In this document: positions 7,590 through 39,849 of the stretch, piece after piece
Layout: each line of letters starts with the position of its first letter
Numbering within the stretch: position 1 is the stretch's first letter
Assembly: GCA_009993045.1 (NCBI GenBank)
Contig: JAACUG010000075.1
Span: 22,183-68,394 of the forward strand
Reading direction: 5' to 3'
Source of the DNA: Cyanobacteria bacterium CG_2015-22_32_23
GTDB taxonomy: Bacteria > Cyanobacteriota > Cyanobacteriia > Cyanobacteriales > Cyanobacteriaceae
Length of the DNA stretch: 46,212 nt
Program-made: the position numbers and the translations under genes
Notes under the pieces: model-generated
What the model was told of the DNA's origin: nothing
Database searches by the model: none
Seen by the model: the letters and a program-made list of their open reading frames with translations, nothing else

Positions 7590-8636
7590 ATGAGTAAAAG
7601 AAGAAGATCACGGAATTTCATTGGTAGTTTATTGTTTGTATTCTTATTATTGAATCCATTATTAGCCTTTGCTAAACCGAAAGCAAAACCCAAACCCAAA
7701 CCAAATCCTGTCTCAGAAACACCTTTACAAAAAGCTCAAAGAGAATTACCAAAAAACTATTTTGTTGTTTATGCCATTGTGGATAAAATTGCCCGAGCGA
7801 ATGGCTTAGATAATAAACCTTGGCGTATTGTTGTTACTTCTAACTATAACGTTAATGCCTATGCTTCTGATACTAACTTACTAACTTTTGAAGCTGGTTT
7901 GATGGATCAATTAGAAGGTAACGCCTCCGCTTTAGCCTGTGCGATCGCCCACGAAATGGGACATCATACAAGACAACATTTAGGTTATGGTCCAGCTAAA
8001 CAAGAACAAGCTAAAAGAGAAGAAATAGAAAAAGCTGAAAAAGCTAAAATAGTTGAACAACAAGATGCTCAAACTCAGGCTTTAATAGGTGCTGGAGTGG
8101 CAACGGGCATGGCTGCGGCGGGTCAACAAGTAGGGGGTATTGGCGGAGGATTGCTTCAACTGGGCGGTTTATTATTTGGAGGTGCAAGTCAACAAAAAGC
8201 ACAGAATATTGAAGCTATTAAAGCCAAAATTGAACAAGAAGCCGAGACTAATTACAATAAGCGTTTAATGGAAATTAGTCAAACTCAAGAATTTGAAGCG
8301 GATGAAAATGGCTATATCTATAGTGTTACCGCAGGATTTGATCCTAATGGTTGTATTGCCGTTATGGATATTTTAGGAAGAATGCCAGGCGCTCAATCAG
8401 AAGGTAGTAGTCATCCTTCTCCTGAAAAACGCACTCAACAGATAAATGCTTTAATGGTGAAAAATCCCCCAGAAACATTAAAAGCTAAAGGGAAAATTTT
8501 TCTAAGCACAAAACCGACTCCTCTTAAATATGAAATTTTTAGTTATGAGCGAGAAGGTGGTGGAACTTCTTCTGGTTTAAAGGTTTTTCCCATCACAGGT
8601 TCAACCCAAGAGGACTTAAATCGTTATCTGAATTAA
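7590..8636 (+). CDS. Secreted M48-family zinc metalloprotease
   Basis: 348 residues. A basic N-terminus and hydrophobic core (about 10-28, ending LLAFA) form a signal peptide, followed by a lysine-proline stretch. The zinc site HEMGHH is at 121-126, and the third ligand is probably Glu236 in EFEADENG, both as in the M48 family. Between them lies a glycine/alanine-rich hydrophobic segment (about 166-200) and a charged coiled stretch. M48 proteases of this type act in envelope quality control. It leads a cassette of five codirectional exported or membrane proteins, 40 bases ahead of the COP23 gene, and the terminator after that gene suggests the two form one transcript. Confidence 0.9.
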   Translation: MSKRRRSRNFIGSLLFVFLLLNPLLAFAKPKAKPKPKPNPVSETPLQKAQRELPKNYFVVYAIVDKIARANGLDNKPWRIVVTSNYNVNAYASDTNLLTFEAGLMDQLEGNASALACAIAHEMGHHTRQHLGYGPAKQEQAKREEIEKAEKAKIVEQQDAQTQALIGAGVATGMAAAGQQVGGIGGGLLQLGGLLFGGASQQKAQNIEAIKAKIEQEAETNYNKRLMEISQTQEFEADENGYIYSVTAGFDPNGCIAVMDILGRMPGAQSEGSSHPSPEKRTQQINALMVKNPPETLKAKGKIFLSTKPTPLKYEIFSYEREGGGTSSGLKVFPITGSTQEDLNRYLN

Positions 8637-8676
8637 ACATCAATCAACATCAACCTATATTCTCAACCTTAAAATT

Positions 8677-9342
8677 ATGTCCACAAAAAAAGTTTCTCTT
8701 TGTATTTTCTCTCTCGTCATGGTGAGTAGCTCCATCAGTTTTGTTTCTCCTAGTGAAGCTGGATCTATTCAATTTGAATGTTCGGTAGATAATAATAATA
8801 ATCCAACTACCTATGTTCAAACACAAGGTGGTGTTGTTGAAATATTTAAGTGGAAAAGTAACTACTTTCAAGGTCCTTATACTCCCATGCAACGCTGTTT
8901 AGAAGTGACTCAAAGAATGAATAAATTTCAACCTAGTTACTTAGTGGCAGGACGAGTTAATAACTATAATGTTATCTGTGCGGGAACTAATTGCGATCGC
9001 GCTGGGAATAATGTACTGTTAACTTTACGACCCGATCAAAATCCGAACCAAGTGTTAGCAGAAATTGATAATACCAGAGATGGTGCTGGAGGTCCTTCTA
9101 TGCAATTAAGTGGTTCTTCTGGAGGACAAAATACGGCAACAAAACAGAGTAACTTAGTGAAAACTCAAAACGGATCATTAGCACTAAATTTAGTTAGTTA
9201 TATTGAATCTGCTCCCAAAATCCCTAAAAATCTCTCAGGGAATTCTAACAGTAGTAATACGACAGGATTAAATGAAGAACCTATCATTGTCCCATCCAAT
9301 GCTGGTCAAAAACCTACCTCGTCACCCGGCATTAAATGGTAA
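8677..9342 (+). CDS. COP23-domain secreted protein
   Basis: 221 residues with a signal peptide (about 1-28, VSPSEA cleavage region). The COP23 domain covers about 30-145; visible landmarks are the FECSVD opening, three further cysteines (QRCLEVT, NVICAGTNCDR) and the LLTLRPDQNP strand. COP23 is a family of cyanobacterial circadian-oscillating, membrane-associated proteins of unknown biochemical role. The tail from 145 is low-complexity Ser/Asn and ends SSPGIKW, which resembles the ends of two other proteins in the cassette. It follows the M48 gene by 40 bases and is followed by a hairpin terminator. Confidence 0.85.
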   Translation: MSTKKVSLCIFSLVMVSSSISFVSPSEAGSIQFECSVDNNNNPTTYVQTQGGVVEIFKWKSNYFQGPYTPMQRCLEVTQRMNKFQPSYLVAGRVNNYNVICAGTNCDRAGNNVLLTLRPDQNPNQVLAEIDNTRDGAGGPSMQLSGSSGGQNTATKQSNLVKTQNGSLALNLVSYIESAPKIPKNLSGNSNSSNTTGLNEEPIIVPSNAGQKPTSSPGIKW

Positions 9343-9359
9343 TAAATTTTTAAGAAGAG

Positions 9360-9393
9360 GTTGGGTAAAACAACTGATAACCCAACTTTTTTT
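9360..9393 (+). terminator. Rho-independent terminator after the COP23 gene
   Basis: Stem GTTGGGT (9360-9366) pairs with ACCCAAC (9380-9386) around a 13-nt loop, followed directly by seven T. It lies 18 bases after the COP23 stop, so M48-COP23 form one unit and the serine protease gene begins another. Confidence 0.85.
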
Positions 9394-9512
9394 ATAATCT
9401 GTTAGGTAGAATTAAAAACAAATTAATCGATATTTACTCTCAAATATTTTATTACTTTTTAAAACTATTAAAACCTAACTTTTCTCTGTTTTACCTTATC
9501 AAAACCTATGTT

Positions 9513-10373
9513 ATGGGCAAAATTTTAGCTACGGGTTTATTTGGTTTAATCTGTTTTTTTACGGGTATTTTCACTCAATATATTCTCCCTGTCAAAAGTG
9601 TTGACACTAGAATTGAATGTAAAGAAGTACTTATTTCTAATACTTCTATTCAGAAAAACCAAGAAAATCCTAAAAACTTAACGAAGCTAGAAACTCAGGA
9701 AAAATCTTCAGAAAAAGAAAAAGACATTGAAATCTATGCTCGAAAAATAACGGTAAAGGTATTATCGGGGGATAATTCAGGATCTGGAATTTTAATTAAT
9801 CAAAAGAGTAATATTTATCAAGTTCTTACTAATAATCATGTTTTATTATTTGGACAACAAAATCAATCCTATAAAATTAAAACAGAAGACGGTAAAATTC
9901 ATATAGCAAAAGTAGTTAAAGAATTAAATTTTCAGAACTATGATTTGGGAGTATTAGAGTTTGAAAGCGAAAATAATTATCAAGTAGTTTCATTATCCCG
10001 AATGTCTATACCATCTGTAAATGAAGTTGTTTATGCAGCAGGTTTTCCCTATGAATCTAATAATTTTACCTTTACCAGTGGACGAGTTGATTTAATTAGT
10101 GATTTATCTTTTCGGGGTGGCTATCAAATAGGCTATAGTAACGATATTCAAAAAGGCATGAGTGGCGGTCCTTTATTTAATGCTCAAGGTGACATTATTG
10201 GCATTAATGGCAGACATAAATATCCTGCTTGGGGAAATCCCTATATATTTGAAAATGGCAGTGTGGCAACTCCAGAACAAAAGGAAATAATGAGTCAATC
10301 TAGTTGGGCAATTCCTATTAAAACTTTTTTACAATTTGCCCCTGAATTTGCCCTTAAGGATAACCTTAATTAA
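9513..10373 (+). CDS. Membrane-anchored trypsin-like serine protease
   Basis: 286 residues. An N-terminal hydrophobic helix (about 5-26) acts as an uncleaved anchor or signal. A charged linker runs to about 75, then the trypsin-like fold. The catalytic triad is visible as His109 (LTNNHV), Asp144 (NYDLGVLEF) and Ser217 (GMSGGPLF). There is no PDZ domain, unlike HtrA/Deg proteases. The active site should face the periplasm. The ATG at 9508 is out of frame, so 9513 is the start. It is followed 26 bases later by a second protease-like gene and then by a kinase, suggesting a proteolysis-signalling unit. Confidence 0.88.
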   Translation: MGKILATGLFGLICFFTGIFTQYILPVKSVDTRIECKEVLISNTSIQKNQENPKNLTKLETQEKSSEKEKDIEIYARKITVKVLSGDNSGSGILINQKSNIYQVLTNNHVLLFGQQNQSYKIKTEDGKIHIAKVVKELNFQNYDLGVLEFESENNYQVVSLSRMSIPSVNEVVYAAGFPYESNNFTFTSGRVDLISDLSFRGGYQIGYSNDIQKGMSGGPLFNAQGDIIGINGRHKYPAWGNPYIFENGSVATPEQKEIMSQSSWAIPIKTFLQFAPEFALKDNLN

Positions 10374-10399
10374 AGTAATTTAAACTAATATTTAATACT

Positions 10400-11365
10400 A
10401 TGAATGGGCTATATAAATTTTCGTTTTTTAAAGTTTTATGTTTTTGCTTATTAAGTGTTTTTTTCTCGTCAAATTGTATTGGTTTTAATAAAAATAAAAA
10501 TGTTTTAGCTCAATTTCCAAAGGCAGAAACTAAACAAAATTTTCCTAAAAATAATGATGATATTGGTAAATTTATTCTTAAATATGAACCCACTAATTCT
10601 AATCCAGAAATTCAGAGAATATTTATAGAAAGTCAAATTTTTGACAAAATCATTAATAATCTTAACAATTCAGGATTAATTATGAGACAAAATATTCCTG
10701 TAACTTTTCAAGATTGTGGAGATCCAAATGCTTATTGGAGTTATAAAAATAAAGAAATAATTATCTGTTATGAAAACACAGCTTATGATTTATTTCTCTT
10801 TCATGAAAAGGCAAAATATCCCATAGAAAAAGCGATGGAAAAATCTATTAATGAAACAATATTCGCATTTTACCATGAATTAGGACACGCTTTAATTGAT
10901 ACATTAGCATTAAATGCTGTGGGGCAGGAAGAAGATACTGTTGATGAATTTGCATCGGTAATGTTATATCGAAATCACGACAAAAATTTTGCAGCAGAAG
11001 TTGTTTTAGATTCTTCAGAATATTATGAATTATTATATAAAGAAAAGGAAAAAAGTCCCAGTTGGGATGAACATACACCTCATGATAAAAGATTATTTAA
11101 TTTAGTTTGTTTTGTTTATGGTAGTAACCCCGAAAAATATGAAAAAATATTCATTGAAAAATTTAATTTACTAGATGAAGAAAATATAGCTTCAGAAGAT
11201 AATTTAAAAGCAAGAAAGGAAAAATGTCAACAAGAATTTACTAAAAAAACTGATAGTTGGAATCGATTATTATTACCCCATTATGCCATTAAAAATAACT
11301 ATCAAAGGTCATCTTTTCCTATCAATAATTCTCCCGGAATGTCTGAGAGAGGAATTTATTGGTAA
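10400..11365 (+). CDS. Secreted DUF4344-type putative zinc metallopeptidase
   Basis: 321 residues with a signal peptide (about 8-27) and possible lipobox-like SSNC near residue 26. The zinc motif HELGH is at 159-163 in FAFYHELGHALID; a downstream EEDTVDEFAS (177-186) probably gives the third ligand. This arrangement is that of the DUF4344 family, whose substrates are unknown. A helical charged domain follows. The C-terminus ends NNSPGMSERGIYW, resembling the COP23 and kinase tails. Spacing is 26 bases to the upstream protease and 46 to the downstream kinase, so one transcript is likely. Confidence 0.8.
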   Translation: MNGLYKFSFFKVLCFCLLSVFFSSNCIGFNKNKNVLAQFPKAETKQNFPKNNDDIGKFILKYEPTNSNPEIQRIFIESQIFDKIINNLNNSGLIMRQNIPVTFQDCGDPNAYWSYKNKEIIICYENTAYDLFLFHEKAKYPIEKAMEKSINETIFAFYHELGHALIDTLALNAVGQEEDTVDEFASVMLYRNHDKNFAAEVVLDSSEYYELLYKEKEKSPSWDEHTPHDKRLFNLVCFVYGSNPEKYEKIFIEKFNLLDEENIASEDNLKARKEKCQQEFTKKTDSWNRLLLPHYAIKNNYQRSSFPINNSPGMSERGIYW

Positions 11366-11411
11366 ACTTTATTAATATTACTATAACTTTTTTTTAATTA
11401 ATTAACTAATT

Positions 11412-13253
11412 ATGAATGTCAATACACCTTTATCTCAAGAAACTATTTTAGAAAATAAATATCGGATAATTCAAAAATTAGGAAAAGGGGGTTTTAGTCG
11501 AACTTATTTAGTAGAAAATATACAAGAAAATCGTAAACATTATCTATTAAAAGAATTTTTGCCCAATCATAATAATAAAACAGAATTTAATCAAAAATCC
11601 TTAGAATTATTTTATCAAGAAGCCTCTATTTTATCTAAATTAAATCATCCTCAAATACCTAAATTTTTAGATTGGTTTCAAGAAAATAATAATTTTTTCA
11701 TCGTTCAAGAATATATTAAAGGAGATAATTATTGGCAATTACTTTGTAAAAGAAAAAGAGAACAAAGGTTATTTTCAGAAGCCGAAATTATCCAATGGTT
11801 TAAAGATTTATTACCCTTAATTAACTATCTTCACGAGAATAAAATAATTCACCGAGATATTTCTCCTGATAACATTATTTATTCTACTGAAATTAATAAA
11901 CCTGTCTTGATTGATTTTGGTGGAGTTAAACAAAAAATGACAGAAATTATTAATCATGGTTATGAAGAAATAAAAGGGACAATTATTGGTAAAATAGGCT
12001 ATTCTGCACCAGAACAATTTAAAGGACAATGTTATGAAAATAGTGATATTTATGCTTTAGGAGTAACTGGTTTAGTTTTGTTAACAGGAAAAGAACCAGA
12101 GTTATTATTTAATAGTTATAGTCGAAAACAATCTTGGGTTCAAGATCTAAATATTAGTGATCAATTTAAGTTAATTTTTGAGAAAATTTTAAAGGAATAT
12201 CCTGATGAAAGATATGCTTCTGCTATGGATGTTTTAAATGAAATAAATAAGATTGGAACTTTAAATAATCAACCACAACAAAGCATAGGAAGTGAAAAAA
12301 CTATTTTAATTGCACCATCAAATGATCACAAATTTGAAAAAGATCCATATCTTATATATCCTGAAAATATAACTAAAAATGAAGAGAAAAAAAATGAAGA
12401 TAATTCTTTGAAAAAAGTTATTTTATTCTTGTTAATGACGCTATTTGGTTTAAGCATTATTGGCTTAGTTTTACAAGCTCCTCATATTAATGCTATTTGT
12501 AAAAAACTAGATAATTGTGCTAAAGATAAAGAATATCAGAAAATTTTTGATGAAACCTTAGTAGATGGAAAAGAAGTAATAAATCCTAAACAAACTGTTA
12601 AAAATATTAATGATTTACAGTCACAGCAAAAAGATTTACAGGAAGTCATAAAAGATTTCAAAGAAATTCCTAATGATGTTAAAGTTTATGATCAAGCTCA
12701 AGAGGAATTAAAAGTTTATGAAAATAAATTAATAGAACTTGATGAGAAAATAAAGAAAGAAAATAAGGCTAATTTAGAGTTTCAAGAAATAGTCAAAAAG
12801 ATGGATAATTTACGCCAAGAAACGTCCCTAGCTAATAATACTAATAAATATCAAAAATTAAAAGCTGAATGGGAAGGATTAAAGGCAAAATTAAACGAAT
12901 TTGATGGTAATTTATTCATTAGTCCTCAAGTGAGTAATCAAATAATAGAATCAGAAAAAAATATTGCCAAAATAGATGATAATTTAAAGATTTTACAGGC
13001 TCAGGCTAAAGCTAAAGCAGAACAAATCGCTAGGGAAAAAGCTAAAGCAAATACCTATAAGCCGTCATCTCCTGTCGTTAGATATAAACCACAGCAAAAT
13101 GCCCCTAAAATTGCTAGACAAATACCTAAAAAATCTCCAGTATTATCTAATCATAAGCAAAATATTACTAAACCTCAGAGAAATTATTATCCAAAGAAAA
13201 CTCCTTCCGCACCTCCCCAAAAAAATATTTCAACTCCCGGGTCTGTTTGGTAG
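11412..13253 (+). CDS. Transmembrane serine/threonine protein kinase
   Basis: 613 residues. The kinase domain spans about 17-280, with the glycine loop GKGGFS (24-29), Lys47 (YLLKEF), catalytic HRD (147-149), DFG (168-170) and APEQ (199-202), so it should be active. A single membrane helix lies near 330-352. The remainder is a charged coiled coil (about 390-540) with a basic proline-rich end that finishes ISTPGSVW. With the kinase in the cytoplasm, this tail lies in the periplasm together with the upstream proteases and COP23 protein. A signalling link between envelope and cytoplasm is inferred from the layout. It closes the cassette; a HIP1 octamer follows at 13360. Confidence 0.92.
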   Translation: MNVNTPLSQETILENKYRIIQKLGKGGFSRTYLVENIQENRKHYLLKEFLPNHNNKTEFNQKSLELFYQEASILSKLNHPQIPKFLDWFQENNNFFIVQEYIKGDNYWQLLCKRKREQRLFSEAEIIQWFKDLLPLINYLHENKIIHRDISPDNIIYSTEINKPVLIDFGGVKQKMTEIINHGYEEIKGTIIGKIGYSAPEQFKGQCYENSDIYALGVTGLVLLTGKEPELLFNSYSRKQSWVQDLNISDQFKLIFEKILKEYPDERYASAMDVLNEINKIGTLNNQPQQSIGSEKTILIAPSNDHKFEKDPYLIYPENITKNEEKKNEDNSLKKVILFLLMTLFGLSIIGLVLQAPHINAICKKLDNCAKDKEYQKIFDETLVDGKEVINPKQTVKNINDLQSQQKDLQEVIKDFKEIPNDVKVYDQAQEELKVYENKLIELDEKIKKENKANLEFQEIVKKMDNLRQETSLANNTNKYQKLKAEWEGLKAKLNEFDGNLFISPQVSNQIIESEKNIAKIDDNLKILQAQAKAKAEQIAREKAKANTYKPSSPVVRYKPQQNAPKIARQIPKKSPVLSNHKQNITKPQRNYYPKKTPSAPPQKNISTPGSVW

Positions 13254-13398: not shown

Positions 13399-14610
13399 TT
13401 ATTGTTGAGACAAAAAACTAATAGCAGTTTGATATTGAAGATCTTTTTCTGTGCCAATTTCAAAGTAACTGATGGGATCTTGAGTTACAATTTTATCAGG
13501 GGTGATACCTAATTTATTAATATCTTTGTGGCTAGGAGTCTCATATTTTGCTACTGTAACGGCAATTCCAGCACCATCAGGCAATTCAAATAAAGATTGA
13601 ATCAAGCCTTTTCCGAAGGTTTTTTCCCCGATTAAAATTCCTCGATGATTATCTTGTAATGCTCCTGCAAGAATTTCACTAGCACTAGCAGAACCCTGAT
13701 TCACTAATACTACTAAAGGTTTATCCGTTAAAGCCTCTCCATCGGCATCATAACTGTCTAAAACCCCTTGACGATTAACTGTATAAACAATAGTACTCGG
13801 TTGCAACCATAAACGAGCAATTTCGATACCAGCTTGTAATAAACCTCCCGGATTATTGCGTAAATCTAAGATGTAGCCTTTTGCACCTTGTTGATCTAAT
13901 TTTACTAAAGCATGGGCTAAATCTTGAGTAGCATTAGCACTAAATTGGGTTAAACCGATATAACCGACAGGATTTTTAGGGTTAGAATTATCTAGGTGAG
14001 AGTTAACCGCACTTAAAGAAAGACGATCACGCTTTAGTTCATAGGTTCTAATATGGGATTCCTTTTGGCGTTTAACTTCAAGTATAACTGTAGTGCCAAT
14101 TTCTCCTCTAATTTTATTGGCGGCTTCATCTAAGGTTATCGTATTAGTATTAATACCATCAATAGTTAGAATTTGATCTCGTGGTTGAATACCAGCTAAT
14201 TCCGCAGGAGAACTAGGTAGAGGTGTTACAACTTCTAATTGACTATTTTCAGGATTAATACTAATTTGTAAGCCAATACCTGATAATTCTCCAGAGGTAG
14301 TAATTTGTAAATTATGATAATTTTCTGGTGGTAAAAGACGAGTATAAGGATCATCAAGAAGTGCTAACATTTCCTTAATAGCAGTATAGGTTTCTTCTCG
14401 ATTATGTAAGGGTTTTTTGATAAATTTTTGCCTAATAGTCCACCAATTCTGATGATTAAAAGTATCATCTACATAAGCCTCATTTACCAAGCGCCAGGAT
14501 TGTAATAAAACTTTTTCTTCTTGAGTATAAGCGAAGGCGTTAGATGGATAAATAAAATTGGAACACAAAATCAATAAAAGAATCACTAAACTTGAGTAAA
14601 TTTTCTTCAT
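13399..14610 (-). CDS. ctpA: Carboxyl-terminal processing protease CtpA (S41)
   Basis: 403 residues with a signal peptide (about 1-28, ending SNAFA), targeting it to the lumen or periplasm. An N-terminal helical region carrying SWRLVNEAYVDD and LDDPYTRLLPPENY is typical of cyanobacterial CtpA. The PDZ domain follows (about 105-185), then the S41 core with the catalytic serine in GSASASEI and the lysine in GEKTFGKG. CtpA removes the C-terminal extension of photosystem II protein D1, which is needed for manganese cluster assembly. I choose CtpA over CtpB/CtpC from overall resemblance; a paralogue cannot be excluded. Gene stands alone on the minus strand. Confidence 0.85.
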   Translation of the reverse strand: MKKIYSSLVILLLILCSNFIYPSNAFAYTQEEKVLLQSWRLVNEAYVDDTFNHQNWWTIRQKFIKKPLHNREETYTAIKEMLALLDDPYTRLLPPENYHNLQITTSGELSGIGLQISINPENSQLEVVTPLPSSPAELAGIQPRDQILTIDGINTNTITLDEAANKIRGEIGTTVILEVKRQKESHIRTYELKRDRLSLSAVNSHLDNSNPKNPVGYIGLTQFSANATQDLAHALVKLDQQGAKGYILDLRNNPGGLLQAGIEIARLWLQPSTIVYTVNRQGVLDSYDADGEALTDKPLVVLVNQGSASASEILAGALQDNHRGILIGEKTFGKGLIQSLFELPDGAGIAVTVAKYETPSHKDINKLGITPDKIVTQDPISYFEIGTEKDLQYQTAISFLSQQ

Positions 14611-38036: not shown

Positions 38037-39849
38037 ATGTTTGGAATATTCGGCGGTGATGATCGTAACAAAAAAAACAACAAAGCCAAAACAAAAGATT
38101 TAGCAACAGTAGATAAAGGTTATCGTTTAGCAGACAAATACGAAATCATCAAAAAGCTAGGGGAAGGCGGTTTTGGGGCGGCTTTTTTAGTCAAAAGTTT
38201 AACCGCTAATGTGGTGGTTAACTACGTTGCCAAAGCCCAAAAATTAACGGATAATCCTGCACAAAATGAAGATTTAATTACCAGATTTAAAAGAGAATCT
38301 AACACTTTACAAAAGTTAGGTAATGCGCATGGACAAATCCCTTCTTTATTCGATTTTTTTGAATTTGAAGGAAATTTTTATCTCATTCAAGAGTATGTAA
38401 AAGGGCAAACTTTATCGGATGTTTTAATAGCAAAATTACAGAAAAAAAACACATTTTCACCCCAAGAGGCGATCGAGATTACTTTATCATTATTAGAAGT
38501 ATTAATCAAAGTTCATGACGAAAACGTTATTCACCGTGATATTAAACCGCAAAATATCATTTTAAGAGAAGGAGATAATAAACCCGTTTTAATCGATTTT
38601 GGCTTAATAAAAGAGTCAAACCGGCACTCAAGCAGGAACAATGGGATATTGCCCATTAGAACAAATGTGTGGCAAAGCCATGTATCAGAGTGATTTATTT
38701 GCTTTAGGAATGACGATGTTAGTGTGTTTAACAGGGATTGGCGCTCATGCTTTTAGAATCGAACCAAATCCTATTGTTGATCCGCAAAATGCTAGGGTAA
38801 TATTAGATGGTTTAGAAGATATTATTGGGGAATTTTTAACTGGTTTTATTCAAGAATCTTTAGCTGTTTTACCGCAAAACCGTTTTGAATCTGCTCAAGA
38901 AATGCGCGAGACATTACTTCAGATAAAAAATGCTCAATATATGGCTATGGGAGCTAATCTTGCCAGAAATGAAATGGAAAAGATGCGCAAAGAAATTGAG
39001 AGACTTAAAAAAGAATTAAAAACTCAAGATGAAGATTTTCAACCTGAAAAATCAGGAGTTACACAGGTTGTCATCGACACGGGAATTATCACTACTCAAA
39101 AAGAAGTAAATGGGTTTAATATTATCAAAAGAGTCATCAAAAATGGTGGTTTAGATGAAACTCGTTTATATTTAAAAGATACCGTTGAATTTTGCGGAAT
39201 TAATATTGATAATGATCAGAAAAAAACTTTGATTAGACTATATTTTAATGATGAAAATAATCTTAGTTTTGCCATTGTATTAAGTAACGGAAAAGAGGAT
39301 ACATATAATATTAATACATTAAAAGGAATTGCACCAAAAAAAGAGCAAATTCTAGATCGAGCTAAAGAATTAATAAGTGGTAAAAAACCGCCCGTAAAGG
39401 TAAATAATTCTTTACTAGACGAAGCTATCCGTCAGACGGGATACACACCAAAAGAAGAAGTTGAGGAGAAAAAAGAAGACGTTGGGGGGAAAGATTATAC
39501 AAAATATACTCTCAATAATGGTGTTGAGAAATATGCTAAAAATCGTCTAATTTTAGCTGTAGTAAGAGAATATATTAGACAAAATCCTAAGACGACTTTG
39601 ACACAATTAAAAAGCGTTTTTCCTGATAATTTACAAGGAAGTTTAGGAGTTGTGCAAAAACTTTCAACTGTTGCCAAAAAGGAAAGATATTTTACAAAAA
39701 AAGAAGAAATTATCTTAGATGGTAACAACGAAAAAATAGTAGTCTGTAATCAATGGGGTATTGATAAGACGACAAAAAAAGGTAATTTCACTGATTTTGT
39801 AGATCATGCAAGAAAATTAGGATTTGTAATTGAAACAGTTTCTAAATAA
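38037..39849 (+). pseudogene. Serine/threonine kinase with unusual C-terminus, frameshifted
   Basis: The first frame (38037-38693) encodes the glycine loop GEGGFG (42-47), Lys66, HRD (166-168) and DFG (187-189). It then leaves the conserved path after LIKESN. The second frame (38641-39849) resumes exactly with AGTMGYCPLEQMCGKAMYQSD, the rest of the kinase. The join falls at 38619-38626, where AACCGGCACT would need two more bases to restore NTGTQAG. A coiled coil follows (about 300-335), then a region whose TTQKEVNGFNII...CGINIDNDQKKTLIRLYFN pattern reminds me of type I restriction-related proteins, and a basic C-terminal domain (LQGSLGVVQKL). The kinase cannot be made intact without frameshifting; the lesion could also be a sequencing error. 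Confidence 0.8.

Follow-up and report, generated by a model that had tools for sequence, protein, structure and literature searches.

A C-terminal tryptophan tail shared by unrelated proteins of cyanobacterial COP23 gene clusters

Why should unrelated proteins encoded side by side end in much the same few residues? The question is raised by five open reading frames (ORFs) on the forward strand at positions 7590-13253 of the window, the whole 46,212-nucleotide stretch of Cyanobacteria bacterium CG_2015-22_32_23 analysed here (assembly GCA_009993045.1, contig JAACUG010000075.1, positions 22,183 to 68,394). They encode an M48 metalloprotease (7590-8636), a COP23 protein (8677-9342), a trypsin-like serine protease (9513-10373), a DUF4344 putative metallopeptidase (10400-11365) and a Ser/Thr kinase (11412-13253). 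A first-pass annotation of the sequence had pointed to alike C-termini on COP23, the DUF4344 protein and the kinase, and these proved to be real and exactly terminal: SSPGIKW (9319-9339) in COP23, NSPGMSERGIYW (11327-11362) in the DUF4344 protein and STPGSVW (13230-13250) in the kinase are each followed directly by the stop codon, with which the ORFs end at 9342, 11365 and 13253. The DNA of the three tails, read by eye, has no extended similarity and diverges past the stop, so that a copied DNA repeat is unlikely. Comparison with other loci tied the tail to the cluster and not to the protein family.

ORFs were called as greedy longest ORFs without a gene finder, and those of at least 100 amino acids were counted. 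W-ended ORFs make up 3/38 in the window, exactly the three tailed proteins, and 1/264 in a sample of 342,347 bases from the same genome, none of the 264 having the C-terminus [ST]PGx(1-9)W; one relative, sampled over 400 kb, had 2/267. The ending is thus not equally common on random proteins of this genome. The original wording of the motif as (S/T)PG...W was right about the terminal W, while PG is frequent yet dispensable, and the sequences compared favour a motif of the form P/G-G-x-[LAVI]-W-COOH that follows a low-complexity linker. What stays constant is the W at the end (F in some loci), usually preceded by L, A, V or I. Among 67 W-ended ORFs, being those of 73 listed that passed a lax linker rule and including some chance ends, position -2 was L, A, V or I in 49, position -4 was G in 30 and position -5 was P or G in 35. 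An alignment of 12 COP23 proteins, picked mostly for their W tails, has a nearly invariant last W after a poorly alignable linker. Two kinds of W ends were excluded as tails: kinases of the source genome ending KRRLW or KKRWW, where pentapeptide-like repeats precede the end (by eye), and ends in GNPW or GSPW, which we take to be CHAT-like.

In loci with a W-ended COP23 (W loci) W ends were found on COP23 itself, on trypsin-like proteases with or without TPR, on DUF4344, papain-like C1 and CAP proteins, on kinases and, in one locus, on two proteins of no named family. Six W-ended proteins share one codirectional stretch in Argonema antarcticum (L074); five were found in Oscillatoria SIO1A7 (L057) and four in Roseofilum (L050). 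Same-strand neighbours were W-ended in 30/105 cases beside W-ended COP23 and in 7/213 beside untailed COP23 (Fisher 2e-10). The proportion was 4/22 beside F-ended COP23 and 2/57 beside COP23 with a cysteine-bounded tail (CC type, described below), both of the latter being ends of the presumably CHAT-like GNPW/GSPW kind, and 14/806 for ORFs outside same-strand runs (not de-duplicated). For 18/24 non-redundant W-tailed COP23 proteins another W-ended, non-COP23 ORF lay at most eight genes away on either strand. Duplicate contigs were recognised by shared 60-mers (L043/L051, L049/L171, L079/L130, L055/L121, L061/L281 and L072/L140); L051 was excluded from the same-strand count, and near-identical proteins were merged there, in the family counts and in the tree pair test.

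Within one family the ending varies with the locus. After de-duplication, the W-ended proteins of W loci comprised 8/8 DUF4344, 5/6 CAP, 2/2 C1, 11/38 trypsin-like, 3/8 kinases and 0/4 M48 proteins, one of the four M48 proteins being F-ended, against 2/68 trypsin-like proteases and 0/9 kinases in loci with untailed COP23. DUF4344 proteins had the W tail in none of eight stretches without COP23 (L045, L046, L233-L237 and L239; the partial matches to DUF4344 seen in G034, G083 and G174 were left out of the counts), nor did any of nine C1 proteins from stretches without COP23, one of them with an interrupted frame. The lack of a tail on the M48 and trypsin-like proteases, remarked upon at first, is therefore correct for the window cluster but not in general, since some trypsin-like proteases of W loci are tailed. 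Orthologues of the same synteny without the tail had been named as one observation that would refute the idea. COP23 and the DUF4344 protein are W-ended both in the same-genus locus L042, where the kinase is so too, and in L047 from a Crocosphaera metagenome-assembled genome, where no kinase was called beside the cluster. In L238, whose synteny is looser (COP23-trypsin-trypsin-DUF4344), COP23 is untailed and the DUF4344 protein ends in the near miss TPGGIRWGD.

COP23 was present in 93/100 related genomes and in 97/292 across the phylum. Among 115 COP23 proteins, non-redundant at 90% identity, 24 ended in W (two of them, in L134 and L162, without an obvious linker), 13 in a CPxxLC-like sequence and 8 in F, and 70 had none of these. 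On a quick COP23 tree the W state requires at least 14 changes by parsimony. Further COP23 proteins, in L052, L083, L131, L170 and L309, have a linker followed by REL or RQL, endings confined to these COP23 proteins within the first set of ORFs; the neighbours in L309 lay outside that check. Another COP23 group ends in LNPxxF or LNPxxFR (L132, L173, L307, L310, L312, L313 and L314), possibly a further tail type.

The source genome also has the second, CC type of tail: on its contig C117 the ends CPGPLCPQ, CPSILCN, CPAILCD and CRDSPLLCQ belong, in this order, to a kinase-like protein lacking HRD, two COP23 proteins and a kinase. In relatives of the same family, too, a COP23 and a kinase of the CC type occur together. 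Non-redundant kinases carried the CC tail in 7/8 cases in CC loci and in 0/9 in loci with untailed COP23. Two F-ended COP23 proteins adjoin kinases that end alike (PLF/PLF and RDF/PDF). After exclusion of nine loci, tail types agreed in 20/27 kinase-COP23 pairs, 14 of them tailed, and neither number was reached in 100,000 shuffles. The seven disagreeing pairs were those of L084, L090, L119, L158, L297 and L298 and one of two in L091. The CC cases are not independent, because almost all come from one bacterial family.

Conservation of the tail is clearest for the kinases. Between the window and its same-genus orthologue the kinase linker is identical at 13/39 positions and the last six residues at 5/6. 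For COP23, whose orthologue ends in SAPGIKW, the figures are 24/39 and 5/6, and for the DUF4344 protein, with NPRGLSERGIYW in the same genus, 28/39 and 6/6. The untailed trypsin-like protease keeps 1/6 of its last residues. Three kinase-like proteins of 35-42% overall identity all retain CPGPLC. In L047, where the DUF4344 protein ends in TPGVSRQGDYW, the G and the terminal W persist.

To these loci 40 later ones were added down the COP23 list of the phylum-wide search, mostly one per genome; other stretches of some of these genomes had been examined earlier, the COP23 proteins of L279 and L281 had been seen before, and L281 repeats L061. COP23 was contained in 38 of them and was W-tailed in five. 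Another W-ended ORF was present in 4/5 loci with W-ended COP23 and in 5/33 others (p 0.0075), or in 3/4 and 4/32 when L279 and L281 were omitted (p 0.018). The W-ended ORF lies on the opposite strand in L279, L284, L297 and L298, and most W ends near untailed COP23 look like chance.

The tails should face the periplasm, because tail carriers have N-terminal leaders (by eye; a signal-peptide rule was too loose for use, as 557/1001 other ORFs passed it) and in most kinases near COP23 the kinase domain is followed by a hydrophobic segment. The window kinase has a single such segment at about 12417-12473 (residues 336-354, Kyte-Doolittle peak 2.83), and its C-terminal part is predicted outside. 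In the AlphaFold2 model of COP23, 96 residues have a predicted local distance difference test score (pLDDT) of at least 90 and the last blocks 40-51. The tail is disordered both here and in the model of one tailed trypsin-like protease, and neither model, a monomer without ligand, has the tail docked onto the carrier's own domain.

With the same tag on secreted proteins and a membrane kinase alike, the best explanation would be docking to a common periplasmic reader, and a pure export signal is disfavoured since the kinase is tagged. That the tail is such a C-terminal docking tag, comparable to that of MucE-AlgW, has in our judgement about an even chance of being right. Binding of the terminal W or F, or of the CPxxLC loop, would fall to one periplasmic protein whose pocket takes up a free aromatic C-terminus, and this protein would so bring together the proteases, COP23 and the kinase's extracytoplasmic end; it could be a PDZ-like protein, or COP23 or the trypsin-like partner itself. 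The early suggestion of a tag on unrelated folds read by an envelope factor thus stands as far as the tail is cluster-bound, terminal and matched in type between COP23 and kinase in most pairs, and falls short in that no reader was identified. Its other form, with the tail-less proteases as readers, is weakened because C1 and some trypsin-like proteases are themselves tailed in W loci, M48 alone of the three having no W end there. As kinase and secreted proteins carry the same tag, the latter might compete with the kinase for the reader, and the kinase might, speculatively, report the level of tagged protease or COP23. A full envelope signalling system of this kind, in which proteases, COP23 and the transmembrane kinase share a cluster-specific tag, the kinase measures the load on one reader and paralogous systems are insulated by W versus CPxxLC, is possible but tentative.

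Several results weigh against a cluster-specific docking tag. The similar kinases of L297 and L298 are W-tailed beside untailed COP23, and within W tails the match of residues is weak (p 0.037, with two orthologous loci included). COP23 and trypsin-like proteases recur in tailed loci, yet both were also found in untailed ones. The untailed M48 protease keeps 6/6 of its last residues in the same genus, and in the comparison with L047, which is more distant, COP23 and the DUF4344 protein each keep 3/6 of their last residues, no better than the linkers (22/39 and 21/39). The same-strand neighbour test was not significant in the later loci (2/21 vs 2/81, p 0.19). Phylogenetically independent pairs were too few, with 3.4 the same way and 0.4 opposite, of 7 supported, and in a second such test 2.1 the same way and 0.0 opposite, of 4; these relatedness-corrected tests point the same way as the docking tag but lack power. 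Finally, no reader was identified among the candidates examined, namely the TPR proteases, a neighbouring S41/PDZ protease and the COP23 fold. TPR on trypsin-like proteases was not specific (12/27 W loci vs 26/67 untailed, not de-duplicated), and a tblastn search found no relative of the S41/PDZ protease in the stretches of L042, L047, L043 and L044.

That same protease, at 13399-14610, enters into the first rival explanation, a processing or degradation signal, by which a PDZ protease (Ctp/S41 or Deg) would read the hydrophobic C-terminus, trim or degrade the tagged set and so set its lifetime. The genome has eight PDZ matches, and PDZ proteases take hydrophobic C-termini as ligands, as in the AlgW-MucE case (PMC8545111). 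A plain degron would need no match of type between kinase and COP23, and the S41 relative was not found in the fetched stretches just named. The CPxxLC form, moreover, seems not to resemble the end of a Ctp or Deg substrate, and we regard this rival as doubtful.

Sorting to the outer membrane or secretion, with the C-terminal aromatic residue mimicking the beta-signal of Omp85/BAM or another exporter, would account for ends in W or F that often have glycine upstream, and some loci encode barrel-like ends such as GVGYSYFF and HFSVNYSF (by eye; one was scanned, with no Pfam match). It is unlikely, because the carriers belong to soluble enzyme, CAP, COP23 and kinase families and are not barrels, a kinase with a membrane segment bears the same tag and CPxxLC is a poor fit to a beta-signal. 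The low-complexity linkers and the disordered ends of the COP23 and trypsin-like models likewise set the tails apart from BAM beta-signals.

The genes are adjacent and the tails short, and linkers and tails copied between neighbours and then left to drift would explain them without function; the comparison with L047, in which the linker is kept at least as well as the last six residues, fits this. Such ancestry is very unlikely given the window tails without extended common DNA, the same-genus kinase with 5/6 of its last residues identical but 13/39 of its linker, and W ends that stay together despite at least 14 changes of the W state by parsimony on the COP23 tree. Least probable of all is an autoregulatory plug of the carrier's own active site or groove, suggested by the many proteases among the carriers, since COP23 and the kinase are not proteases and the tail was disordered in both models.

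The nearest worked-out parallel to the docking tag is MucE-AlgW which, like the OMP (outer-membrane protein)-DegS pair, depends on an HtrA-type protease whose PDZ domain reads a free C-terminal WVF or YxF of periplasmic or outer-membrane proteins in Pseudomonas and E. coli (PMC8545111). The likeness lies in the free C-terminal hydrophobic-aromatic motif. Unlike those pairs, the clusters described here carry the motif on several proteases and a kinase, have a second, cysteine-bounded tail type, and in the 14 trypsin-like proteases scanned gave no PDZ match in Pfam. A short C-terminal tag common to unrelated exported proteins of one genome is also characteristic of the CTERM sorting tags (PEP-CTERM, GlyGly-CTERM, LPXTG). 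The present motif differs from these in that neither a hydrophobic helix nor a basic end follows it; in all three window proteins the stop comes directly after it.

COP23 (circadian oscillating protein, PF14218) is a cyanobacterial family of no known function for which a daily rhythm or very high expression has been reported. It has been reported in UCYN-A as the transcript that differs most dramatically between light and dark (PMC6315102) and in a diatom endosymbiont as the most highly expressed, non-oscillating gene (PMC11131595); in the available parts of both papers tails, proteases and kinase partners go unmentioned. Searches of open-licence literature on COP23, DUF4344, C-terminal tags and sorting signals brought up no paper recognisable as an account of such tails. 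Through the tail, an element of five residues that can be put to the test, COP23 becomes linked to a kinase and to exported proteases. Should a single receptor recognise the tag, the cyanobacterial envelope would have a new C-terminal code that is easy to search for and comes in two chemically distinct versions within one genome.

Assignment of the window proteins is clear for COP23 (PF14218, E 9.6e-28, 97.1 bits against a gathering score of 27; N-terminal hydrophobic leader), for the DUF4344 protein (PF14247, E 4.4e-54, 184 bits against 29.6; HExxH present as HELGH) and for the kinase (PF00069 Pkinase, E 6.8e-37; HRD motif in HRDISPDN). The M48 protease (PF01435 Peptidase_M48, E 2.6e-16) has HEMGHH and an N-terminal hydrophobic leader, and M48 is also a neighbour in L042 and L047. 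The trypsin-like protease (PF13365 Trypsin_2, E 7e-22) is Deg/HtrA-like but does not qualify as HtrA/Deg, with a PDZ domain after the protease domain: the Pfam scan gave Trypsin_2 and Trypsin only, and the NCBIfam Deg models scored far under the cut-off (degP_htrA_DO, E 6.8e-17, 61.5 bits, cut-off 416). In a comparison with PADLOC models of anti-phage defence systems the kinase and this protease matched kinase and protease models (PD-T4-6, mad6, LmuA and others), and the M48, COP23 and DUF4344 proteins had no match at E 0.001.

The COP23 domain model is confident and had no clear match among solved structures (none in the PDB at E ≤0.001; best VIA-align Z 3.0 over 46 residues). No function can be drawn from the fold because of this, and a missing match is no proof of a new fold. 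COP23 also occurs within one long ORF in L016, L018 and L019, with a C-terminal region ending HPFYWAAFTMIGSPW that we take to be CHAT-like, another possible link between COP23 and a protease. Directly after the window COP23, at 9353-9393, an RNA hairpin of 14 pairs runs into a T stretch (minimum free energy -15.6, z -3.5; without listing in the consensus scan) and is possibly a terminator making COP23 the main transcript. A second kinase gene of the window, at 38037-39849, seemingly has its halves on two overlapping ORFs in different frames, which suggests a frameshift.

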